A DNA stretch of 64,000 bases from Aestuariimicrobium kwangyangense DSM 21549 (GTDB taxonomy: Bacteria > Actinomycetota > Actinomycetes > Propionibacteriales > Propionibacteriaceae), in assembly GCF_000421525.1 (NCBI RefSeq), contig NZ_ATXE01000001.1, positions 62,001-126,000 of the forward strand, in the 5' to 3' direction. Positions 9,713-60,102 of this stretch are shown in pieces. Under the pieces are notes generated by a model, which saw only the letters and a program-made list of their open reading frames with translations, did not search any database and was not told where the DNA came from. Every line of letters begins with the position of its first letter. Position 1 is the first letter of the stretch. The translations under genes were made by a program, and so were the position numbers.

Positions 9713-9816
9713 GAGGCTGGTCACCGCCCCCCAGGGGCCCGGACGAGGGAGCCGTACCCGGACCATGGACAAGACGGCCATCACCCCACTCCCCCATCTG
9801 AACCAAGGAGTGCCTG

Positions 9817-17139: not shown

Positions 17140-17275
17140 GTGCTGGGTGCCCGCGTTCCGGGCAGGATGCCCGCGTCCCGGGCAGGATGCCCGCGTTCCG
17201 TGCACCTGCCCCCGTCCAGGGACAGGGCAGCTGAGCCCAAGGAGGGCAACTGGCCCCGAAGGCGGGCAACTGGCG
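17140..17275. repeat. Convergent 19/20-bp GCCC/GGGCA array (array 1)
   Basis: TGCCC units start at 17148, 17168, 17188 and 17207 (steps 20, 20, 19). GGGCA units start at 17225, 17244 and 17264 (steps 19, 20). The two halves face each other across a 24-bp core at 17207-17230 that begins TGCCCCCGTCCAGGGACAGG. The same core occurs inverted at 58665-58688. The array fills the divergent promoter region between the kinase and the monooxygenase genes. Confidence 0.85.
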
Positions 17276-57714: not shown

Positions 57715-58422
57715 CTACCCAGCGCCGGTTCCCATCCATGGCTCGGGGTGGGAATTGCCCTCGTCGAGCCGCCTTCCGGCGCGGTTCAGGGCCGGACTGC
57801 CCGAGACCGTCGGGTCGTCCGCGATCCAGAACCTCCAGCCGAACAGGTCAGGGTCGGCACCCGCGGCGGGCACCCCGATCCGCGGTCCCGAGCGGATGCA
57901 GGCGGGATCGAGCGCGGGCTGGGGCCACTGCCAGCCGAATTCGTGGTCGGCGTCGGCGAGACCGGGGTGCCAGGCAACGGCGTCGTCGGCGTGGACGATG
58001 CCCAGGGCGACGGTGAGTCTGGCTGGACCCCGGGCGAGGTCGAGGGGCGCGCGGCAGACCCCCGTCCGGGTGCGTCGGGCCAGGGCCACCTGCTGCCCGG
58101 CGATCACCTCACCGGCCCGGATCAGCAGGCCATGGCCCAGCCCTTCGTCACTGCAGACCAGGTTCACGCAGTGGTGCAGCCCCATGTGCCGGTAGACGTA
58201 GAGGTGGCCGGACGGCCCGAACATCGTCTGGTTGCGGGGGGTGCGTCCGCGGAAGGTGTGGGCGGCGGGGTCATCGGCACCCCGATAGGCCTCGACCTCG
58301 GTGACGCGGATGGCGACCAGGGCACCGTCGCGCCAGGTGGAGAGCACGCCACCGAGGGCATGGCGGGCCGCCACCAGGGGGTCGGCCAAGCGGGGGTCGG
58401 ACGCTCGGGGGTCGCGGGTCAT
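57715..58422 (-). CDS. mpg: DNA-3-methyladenine glycosylase (AAG/MPG family)
   Basis: This 235-residue base-excision repair enzyme removes alkylated purines. MPG motifs: VTEVEAYRGADDPAAHTFRG (catalytic Glu in EVEAY), TPRNQTMFGPSGHLYVYRHMG, then ARGPARLTVALGI. The last 20 residues extend slightly past the domain. The ATG at 58422 gives the family start (MTRDPRASDPRLADPLVAAR). No good ribosome site is visible. It lies at the head of the mutA-mutB-meaB strand and directly downstream of the GGGCA array. Confidence 0.9.
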   Translation of the reverse strand: MTRDPRASDPRLADPLVAARHALGGVLSTWRDGALVAIRVTEVEAYRGADDPAAHTFRGRTPRNQTMFGPSGHLYVYRHMGLHHCVNLVCSDEGLGHGLLIRAGEVIAGQQVALARRTRTGVCRAPLDLARGPARLTVALGIVHADDAVAWHPGLADADHEFGWQWPQPALDPACIRSGPRIGVPAAGADPDLFGWRFWIADDPTVSGSPALNRAGRRLDEGNSHPEPWMGTGAG

Positions 58423-58544
58423 GGCCCAACATTCCCGCAAACTCGTCGCCAGATCAGCAATCGGGCCGTCGGGGGGGCGGTGGGGCGACTTCTGGGGACG
58501 AGTTCCCGGGTTCCGTCGACGGGGCACCGGTCCTCCTCCCGCAC

Positions 58545-58826
58545 CAGGTGCCCTCCCCCCGCACCAGTTGCCCTCGTCCGGCCCACCTGCCCTCCCCCCG
58601 CACGATCTGCCCTCGTCCGGCCCACCTGCCCTCCTCACGCACCAGTTGCCCTCGTCCGGTCCACCTGCCCTGTCCCTGGACGGGGGCAAGTGCGCCCAAC
58701 GAGGGCAACCAGCACCGAACAGGGGCAAGTGGGCGGCTGGTCCCAACACGGGACGAGGGCAAGTGCGCGGAACGAGGGCAAACAGGACCGACCAGGGGCG
58801 AACCAGGACCCGACGAGAGGGGGCAA
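58545..58826. repeat. Convergent 19/20-bp TGCCCT/GGGCAA array (array 2)
   Basis: TGCCCT starts at 58549, 58569, 58588, 58608, 58627, 58647 and 58666 (steps 20,19,20,19,20,19). GGGCA units follow at 58684, 58703, 58723, 58757, 58776, 58796 and 58821 (mostly steps of 19 or 20). The two sets face each other over the 24-bp core at 58665-58688, identical but inverted to that in array 1. It fills the 417-bp gap between the mpg start and the MFS stop, and no gene is credible in this gap. Confidence 0.9.
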
Positions 58827-58839
58827 CGAGCCCACCCGA

Positions 58840-60102
58840 TCAGGACGCGGCCACCGGATGGAAGGGATCGGAGTCCACGTTCAGGTGCCGCTCCTTGCGG
58901 GTGTCCAGCACCCGCGAGAGCACCAGGATCCCTATGGCGTAGAGCGGCACCAACCAGAGGGCACGGGCGAGCGTCAGCTGGTCGGAGACCCATCCCACCA
59001 GCGGGGGGCTGAGGAAGAACCCGAGCCGGGCCAACCAGCCGACCACGGTGACCCCGAGTCCGTGCGGGATGCCCTCCAGCTCGTCCGCGGCGCGGAAGGC
59101 GGCCGGGAACAGGGTGGCGATACCCCATCCCACCAGCGCGAACCCGATCACCGCGGTCACGGGATGGGGAACGAGCAACGCCAGGCTCATACCGACGATC
59201 GCCAGCAGTGATCCCACCCGGGCCGTCATGCGGTCGCCCCACCTGTCGACCACCGGATCACCCAGGAATCGTCCGACCATCTGCGCCCCCTGCATGGCGA
59301 TGAACGGGAGTCCGGCCACGAAGGGGGTGACGGTGAAGGTCGCGTTCATGAACAGGGCACCCCAGGAGTTGCCGGCGTCCTCGATCGAACCGGTGAACAC
59401 GAGGACGAAGCCCAGGGCCACCACCACACCCATGGCCTTGGCCATGCCCCGGGGCAGCCGCGAACTGCGCTCGCTCAGCACCTCGCCCGCAGAGGCCGGG
59501 TGGGGCGAGGACACCATCCGCTCCGAGGAGTCGTGCCCGGGCAGGTGGTGGCGGAACGAGAACAGCGCCAGCGAGGCGAAGACCAGGAACCCGATGCCCC
59601 CCTGCCACAGCAGGGGTAGTCCCACCTGCGCCCCGAGCGCCCCCAGGAGCCCACCCACGACGGCACCCATCGACCACCAGCCGTGGTAGCTGTTCATGAT
59701 CGATCGTCGGTAGCGCCGCTCGACCCGCATGCCGTGGGCGTTCATCGAGATGTCGGTGATGGCATCGCACGCGCTCGCGAACATCAAGGAGGCCATCAAC
59801 CACAGCCACGACTGCGAGGCGTAGATGGTCAGGTGGAACAGGCTCGCGAGCACCTGCAACCCGACCGACAACCGGGCCGTCCCGAACCGACGCATCAACG
59901 AGGCGGCCGCCAGTCCGGCCAGCAGGCCGCCGATGGGCCCGAGACCGATCGCGAGACCGAACGCGGTGTTGGTCAGGTCGAGCTTGCGGACGAGCTCGGG
60001 GTAACGGGGCAACACCATGCACATCGACGCGCCGTTGATGAAGAACACCAACGACACGGCCCAGCGGGCGCGACGGTCCTCGAGGGCAGGGATGGAGCTC
60101 AT
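58840..60102 (-). CDS. MFS transporter
   Basis: This 420-residue transporter has 12 predicted helices. It opens RRARWAVSLVFFINGASMCM and carries an MFS-type loop (RRFGTARLSVG) between helices 2 and 3, plus RVERRYRRSIMNSYHGWWSMGAVVG in helix 4-5, a pattern of the YfmO/FucP-like group with a conserved Ser-x-His in SYHGWWS. The substrate is unknown. It has another MFS transporter of the same style 1.4 kb away (61476-62696), with a DUF2207-related gene in between. Confidence 0.88.
   Translation of the reverse strand: MSSIPALEDRRARWAVSLVFFINGASMCMVLPRYPELVRKLDLTNTAFGLAIGLGPIGGLLAGLAAASLMRRFGTARLSVGLQVLASLFHLTIYASQSWLWLMASLMFASACDAITDISMNAHGMRVERRYRRSIMNSYHGWWSMGAVVGGLLGALGAQVGLPLLWQGGIGFLVFASLALFSFRHHLPGHDSSERMVSSPHPASAGEVLSERSSRLPRGMAKAMGVVVALGFVLVFTGSIEDAGNSWGALFMNATFTVTPFVAGLPFIAMQGAQMVGRFLGDPVVDRWGDRMTARVGSLLAIVGMSLALLVPHPVTAVIGFALVGWGIATLFPAAFRAADELEGIPHGLGVTVVGWLARLGFFLSPPLVGWVSDQLTLARALWLVPLYAIGILVLSRVLDTRKERHLNVDSDPFHPVAAS

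Follow-up and report, generated by a model that had tools for sequence, protein, structure and literature searches.

The array in the window and its counterparts in the source genome

Between a gene for a 3-methyladenine-DNA-glycosylase-like protein and one for an MFS-transporter-like protein (both assigned by eye), the window, i.e., the whole stretch of 64,000 nucleotides that was analysed, contains an array of short boxes which converge from both sides on a mirrored core. The features are the following:

17148..17268, no strand assigned: array 1 of the window, of the same family, with oppositely oriented core; four boxes left, three right
57715..58422, minus strand: neighbour gene, 235 aa, 3-methyladenine-DNA-glycosylase-like; the array lies upstream of its start
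58549..58670, plus strand: left arm, TGCCC seven times, with 20- and 19-bp steps alternating toward the core
58666..58688, plus strand: core, TGCCC-N13-GGGCA, 23 bp
58684..58727, minus strand: right arm, three inverted boxes (GGGCA), 19 then 20 bp apart
58757..58780, minus strand: second pair of inverted boxes, 34 bp beyond the last box of the right arm, out of register
58840..60102, minus strand: neighbour gene, MFS-transporter-like; the array lies downstream of its stop

The boxes of the left arm begin at 58549, 58569, 58588, 58608, 58627, 58647 and 58666 (steps of 20, 19, 20, 19, 20 and 19 bp), as the original prediction had described, and this run of seven was not approached in 1000 dinucleotide shuffles of positions 58501-58860, where the maximum was two. 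The core, TGCCCTGTCCCTGGACGGGGGCA, had been given as 24 bp and comprises 23 bp. Mostly 19-20 bp steps had also been reported for the GGGCA side; this holds for three boxes at 58684, 58703 and 58723 (steps 19 and 20), but a break of 34 bp precedes the boxes at 58757 and 58776, which are out of register and probably represent a remnant or a duplication, and a further break of 45 bp precedes the box at 58821. The outer units repeat with a period of 39 bp (89% match). The proposal that all sites lie on one face of the DNA is doubtful, since 19.5 bp correspond to 1.86 turns at 10.5 bp per turn, which results in a drift of about 50 degrees per step. Other features of the window are a Guanidine-III riboswitch at 9721-9782 on the plus strand (46.2 bits, above the Rfam cut-off) and, at 1758-1821, four perfect head-to-tail copies of the 16-bp unit GATCAGCCCAGCACCA.

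A search of the source genome G000 (2.99 Mb, five contigs) for three TGCCC boxes spaced by 19/20 bp gave 84 matches (forward 49, reverse 35), and the reversed control gave one; for a pattern of four boxes placed around the core there were 23 matches, and 0 for the control read backwards. Walking outward from each core yielded 25 arrays, array 1 of the window being another of them; the core is therefore not unique to this locus. Steps of 19 and then 20 bp on either side of the core were present in 23 of the 25 arrays, 19 of these being without mismatch in the boxes concerned. The common kernel of 101 bp consists of three boxes with steps of 20 and 19 bp, the 13-nt centre, and three inverted boxes with steps of 19 and 20 bp; 142 of its 150 boxes in the 25 arrays are exact, and up to six extra outer units are added per arm. 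The oriented consensus of the 13-nt centre is TRYCCCTGNMCGG, the spacers show a weaker consensus around CASY-TGCCC-YCGT, and the mean identity from kernel to kernel is 69% over 101 bp.

No called gene contains any of the 25 arrays; a 31-bp overlap with a predicted start exists in one case. Genes were called with a home-made script based on codon usage, which missed at least one gene, the MFS gene beside the array of the window; with this gene added, the gaps holding arrays are about 7 convergent, 5 divergent and 13 tandem (7, 6 and 12 before). The core showed no preferred orientation relative to the genes in the 25 arrays, and a terminator or promoter element was rejected on this ground. One array adjoins a gene for an MT0933-like antitoxin (L042:3525-3746). 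The geometry does not fit a CRISPR array, as had been noted before: the boxes measure 5 bp, the arms are mirrored, and the spacers share a consensus.

Since the arrays are mirror-symmetric, their halves could also form a long RNA hairpin, as had been suggested, and serve as attenuator or bidirectional terminator between genes. In the source genome, however, left and right spacers of the same array were complementary in 369 of 696 cells, compared with 392.4 (sd 9.1) for shuffled pairs, 99.5% of the shuffles reaching the observed value (24 of the 25 arrays; one, L028, was omitted because its outer steps differ). An excess of arm covariation was likewise absent from the genomes G050 and G055, the gaps are of mixed type, and Rfam gave no match at the array of the window. 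The arms do covary in an array family from an Arthrobacter-labelled metagenome-assembled genome (MAG; see below), with 353 versus 330.3 (sd 6.1; P 0.0005; 23 arrays, including one from Galactobacter valiniphilus), and hairpins may therefore matter in that lineage. For the source genome, the hairpin was rejected, because complementarity falls below that of shuffled pairs and orientation to the genes is indifferent; as an account of the window array it appears extremely improbable. Several copies among L052-L075 (mostly from MAG Pcu381_bin21) are near-perfect palindromes, unlike the arrays of the source genome.

The gene between two arrays and its homologues

Two arrays of the source genome, located 1.17 kb apart on contig C4 and outside the window, flank one gene (G000:C4:204506-205423; L046:4207-5127). 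Its product matches Pfam AbiEi_4 (PF13338; E 5.2e-9, above the cut-off) and, in PADLOC, models for AbiEi; a match in NCBIfam was not obtained at E 0.01. The upstream neighbour encodes a maltokinase N-cap protein, the downstream neighbour, judged by its start, a TypA-like GTPase; an AbiEii-type partner was not seen in the one neighbour that was scanned, the upstream one. The conserved DNA-binding protein whose co-occurrence with the arrays had been proposed as a check has a counterpart in an AbiEi-type protein, and the idea of a site for a multimeric DNA-binding protein is supported. The protein would very likely bind the array units.

AbiEi_4 was matched by 24 of 33 homologues, AbiEi_1 and AbiEi_3_N being the only other families listed. 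An alignment (A2) of P0001, 31 of the 60 homologues described below (mostly with arrays) and the protein of locus L057 contained four residues which are invariant in 33 of 33 sequences, E189, D222, E233 and D235, the latter two as E233-x-D235; they agree with the acidic catalytic set that is conserved in PD-(D/E)xK (DUF559/Vsr-like) nucleases. The C-terminus aligns with DUF559 (hhalign probability 97 against two AbiEi_4 + DUF559 proteins); matches to a Pfam nuclease family or to a PDB chain were not obtained for this end, and a structure model of the L057 protein from its single sequence was poor (pLDDT 37). Judged from the motifs and the profile match to two DUF559 proteins only, the C-terminus would appear to be PD-(D/E)xK-like, i.e., nuclease-like. 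The AbiEi_4 + DUF559 proteins are similar in domain order and length and can be aligned over most of their length, but they possess E-x-D-G followed by H, whereas the array-associated proteins contain GE[FVY]DGxxKY; furthermore, arrays were found in 0 of 238 sequence windows at 0 of 20 loci of these paralogues.

Searching relatives for the same box, as had been recommended, yielded 0 of 36, a probable reason being that box and protein change together. The array profile R1 matched 7 of 198 genomes, including the source genome, and led to the genomes G001 and G143. In G001, which belongs to the same genus, the homologue (54%) is located between two R1 matches; in G143 an R1 match lies 0.3 kb from the homologue. 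A contig scan with the DNA pattern alone gave 27 stretches: the Arthrobacter-labelled MAG accounted for 22 sites in 19 of them, Galactobacter valiniphilus for one site, and seven stretches from other sources had a match each. The only protein match among the 27 stretches was at L057 of the MAG, where a homologue of the AbiEi-nuclease is situated between two arrays 1.2 kb apart. Homology of the MAG arrays to those of the source genome is not claimed; the two agree in the kind of geometry and of gene, and the resemblance of their TTTGCCC box to TGCCC may be due to chance through the search pattern.

A detector without knowledge of any box was based on geometry (a 7-mer with at most one mismatch, steps of 18-22 bp, core mirrored across a gap of at most 16 bp) and applied to 60 homologues (L136-L195) from organisms of the same family, a selection, mostly from few-contig genomes, among the matches listed. 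Arrays were detected within 500 bp of 31 of the 60 homologues and at none of the other 29. Among the controls, arrays were scored in 4 of 963 segments (520 bp each) taken from these loci, in 0 of 120 shuffles, at 5 of 305 genes other than the homologues and in 2 of 174 gaps; the five positive control genes represent three arrays, of which that at L189 carries the box of its own locus's gene. The idea was prompted by L138 (scored negative) and L141 (scored positive), and nine loci had been inspected before the detector was designed (L137, L142, L146, L147, L150, L152, L153, L155 and L192; six positive); among the 51 homologues uninspected beforehand, 25 scored positive. A mirrored core with further boxes on both sides was present in 28 of the 31 positives, with boxes on one side only in L163, L165 and L184, and arrays flanked the gene on both sides in 14 of the 60 homologues. 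The association between arrays and gene is strong.

The boxes vary between homologues, from TTTACCC to GCCACC, TCGCTAC, CGGCACA and ACTTTGC; whatever the box, the steps in the 45 detected arrays were 19 (98 cases), 20 (26), 18 (2) and 22 bp (2). In 30 of 45 cases, the box on one side of a gene had at least two exact copies on its other side; for comparisons between loci the figure was 90 of 2655. Exact copies were used, instead of a version allowing one mismatch, which had a background of 36-66%; because of this background, a rise of box sharing between loci with protein identity, obtained with the latter version, was worthless. The exact centres of the 45 arrays are often 6-bp palindromes (CTGCAG in 6 of 45; GTGCAC, GAATTC, CCATGG and AAGCTT in two each), and such a centre is a possible cutting site.

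In the wider phylum, the protein profile matched 171 of 396 genomes, with at most a few candidates scored per genome and weak matches that may be paralogues; arrays were present at 5 of 30 inspected loci and absent from 25. One example, found by protein alone, is EL451_RS05530 of Tsukamurella tyrosinosolvens (NZ_LR134451.1), annotated as AbiEi family antitoxin domain-containing protein, which has CGCTGCC arrays on both sides and lies between tatB and an Mrp gene. This array occurs in only three places of its 416-kb record, and a second Tsukamurella match was devoid of arrays. The source genome contains a second homologue (G000:C1:1391048-1391929; L136), which was negative with the detector; by eye, a mirrored element, GTGGCTGG...CCAGCCAC, is recognisable on both flanks. 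As this element is a different one, the genome seems to hold two such systems.

Dispersal and turnover of the arrays

In both cases tested, the copies follow the protein, and other genomes contain only background. The sequence GCCACC-N8-GGTGGC flanks the gene in G050 and G055 and is present 26 and 35 times, respectively, in these genomes (flanking copies included); 19 of the 26 copies in G050 are identical over all 20 bases, and five more are off by one or two. In G041, G047 and G000, where a gene of that type is absent, the numbers are 14, 7 and 8, with 4, 1 and 7 for the reversed controls. Similarly, TCGCTAC-N8-10-GTAGCGA was found 8 times in G155 and 7 times in G009, which possess the matching gene, once in G160, and not in G000 or G050.

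The neighbourhood of the gene is kept between the source genome and G001, with four matching genes, including the TypA-like GTPase at 72%, in a locally changed order. None of eight solo arrays examined in G001 shares its neighbourhood with an array of the source genome (only scattered single-gene matches of 25-39%), detection in G001 being incomplete, since R1 is tuned to the boxes of the source genome. In G001 the glycosylase gene has different surroundings and thus gives no information on an empty site of the window array. One shared neighbourhood was found for G143, where a trio of genes next to the array locus L205 corresponds to a trio located about 2 kb away from the array L038 of the source genome.

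G055 and G050, which are about 96% identical, allow a closer comparison. For 16 solo arrays of G055 among the matches listed, an array was present at the matching place of G050 in nine cases, and seven were without counterpart. Six of the seven were looked for in G050 and four places were located; the two misses may reflect loss of the region or a shortened query. At the first place, about 200 bp including the array in G055 are opposed to 5 bp in G050, with no target-site duplication visible; at the second, no array is contained in the 400 G050 bases seen. The third (L301 in G050, L290 in G055) is occupied in G050 by an array of GCCAACG boxes on both sides, next to what is left of a GCCACC arm, and the fourth by a GCCACC-box array with another centre, which the strict pattern had missed. 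It was also observed that arrays of different families share one site at L301/L290. The partner gene is the most changed of 17 genes compared between the two genomes (91.9% versus 92.6-100%), and its two neighbours are almost as changed (93.0 and 92.6%).

Could the protein be a chromosome-wide regulator or architectural factor, the arrays being its functional binding sites and the copies having arisen via ordinary mutation and recombination? The exactness of the kernel boxes while the spacers vary would resemble selected sites, and the position of the arrays outside called genes, without orientation bias, and the presence in G050 of counterparts to 9 of the 16 G055 arrays would be in agreement. 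Better in keeping with mobile elements, however, are arrays on both sides of the own gene, as in 14 of the 60 homologues, the presence or absence of a whole array between genomes as close as G050 and G055, a different box in most homologues, and the lack of a solo site common to the source genome and G001; for a regulator, the conserved nuclease motif would be superfluous. We regard this explanation as unlikely. Some observations likewise count against a mobile element, namely the absent target-site duplication, homologues without arrays, the low copy number in Tsukamurella, and the neighbours of the gene in G050 and G055 at 93.0 and 92.6% compared with 91.9% for the gene itself. Also, copies with 69% identity are old for a freely moving element, and slow turnover of binding sites would fit them too.

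Comparison with known systems and significance

The REP/RAYT system offers the closest parallel. As described in PMC2817692, REPs are extragenic, dispersed, mirrored repeats, of which two copies flank the RAYT gene; protein and repeat covary, and the gene is fast-evolving, fixed in place, and by its presence predicts REP copies. The arrays share the gene between two copies with further copies dispersed, the pairing of box and protein, a changed gene in a fixed place, and copies where the gene is. RAYTs, however, carry Pfam01797 (IS200/IS605-type Y1), whereas the partner protein here would consist of an AbiEi winged helix and a PD-(D/E)xK-like end; and REPs are palindromes of 20-40 bp, most of them tagged GTAG or CGTC (PMC3733652), in contrast to 19/20-bp units with six boxes in a 101-bp kernel. 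The array system is not a member of REP/RAYT, since its protein differs from the Y1 transposases and its repeat from a palindrome of 20-40 bp; the best reading is a REP/RAYT-like mobile system built from unrelated parts.

A relationship exists also with type IV toxin-antitoxin systems of the AbiE type (AbiEi of S. agalactiae, Rv2827c of M. tuberculosis), where the winged-helix domain is N-terminal as well. According to PMC7319586, monomers of AbiEi antitoxins bind 23-bp inverted repeats via this domain; these repeats of about 20 bp lie beside the antitoxin's own gene, and the arrays, too, adjoin the gene. Differences are the nuclease-like C-terminal domain suggested for the partner protein, the occurrence of arrays on both sides of the gene and in some 20 other places, a step of 19/20 bp versus pairs of 23-bp repeats, and the fact that no toxin gene was recognised beside the gene of the source genome in the one neighbour scanned. 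From this kinship a selfish or defence module could be envisaged, in which arrays act as sinks or self-marks that hold the AbiEi-nuclease until it is freed by loss of arrays or by the entry of array-free DNA. Besides the AbiEi domain itself, up to 10 matches per genome among those listed, e.g., four in G118 with as many boxes, would suit such a module and recall diversifying modules. Yet an AbiEii-type partner was not seen in that neighbour, 50,697 phage records gave 0 matches, no relative was confirmed among viral contigs, and two records labelled as plasmids have chromosomal-looking neighbours; this explanation is, in our opinion, quite improbable.

Taken together, arrays and gene appear to represent small mobile DNA elements of a family so far undescribed. 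The array of the window is, with somewhat better than even prospects, a solo copy of a REP-like mobile element that is dispersed through the genome. Such a copy would be non-autonomous, its dedicated protein being encoded at another locus between two copies. One subunit of the protein would read each 19/20-bp unit with its N-terminal winged helix; the subunits could stack head to tail on either arm, the two rows meeting as mirror images at the dyad of the core, where, or close to which, the PD-(D/E)xK-like end might cut. Such a cut would promote copying of the arrays into other intergenic places, and mobilisation would thus be due to the nuclease. It is conceivable, if not quite probable, that actinobacteria possess an entire class of mobile elements of this kind: a protein that is unrelated to transposases and combines a winged helix with a PD-(D/E)xK-like nuclease would read the tandem 19/20-bp units, cut at the mirrored core and copy the arrays around the chromosome, with the box being re-coded in each protein lineage and the spacing remaining fixed.

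No description joining these AbiEi-type proteins with repeats was found among the papers listed in a literature search that covered mainly open full texts, with subscription journals and preprints largely outside its scope, which supports the original statement that no named element has such a geometry. REPs are explained by one type of enzyme, RAYT. The word actinobacteria does not appear in the text of the two papers on REPs (PMC2817692, PMC3733652). If the proposal is true, a second, independent route besides RAYT would exist for filling the gaps of bacterial genomes with small mirrored elements. A common group of proteins, known in one named record as "AbiEi family antitoxin domain-containing", gains a concrete candidate DNA target; since this candidate can often be read from the genome beside the gene, binding and cutting are testable for dozens of pairs of protein and site. 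The paired changes of box and protein could reveal a recognition code of the winged helix, and the family, again if the proposal is true, would represent a natural library of DNA-recognition specificities.
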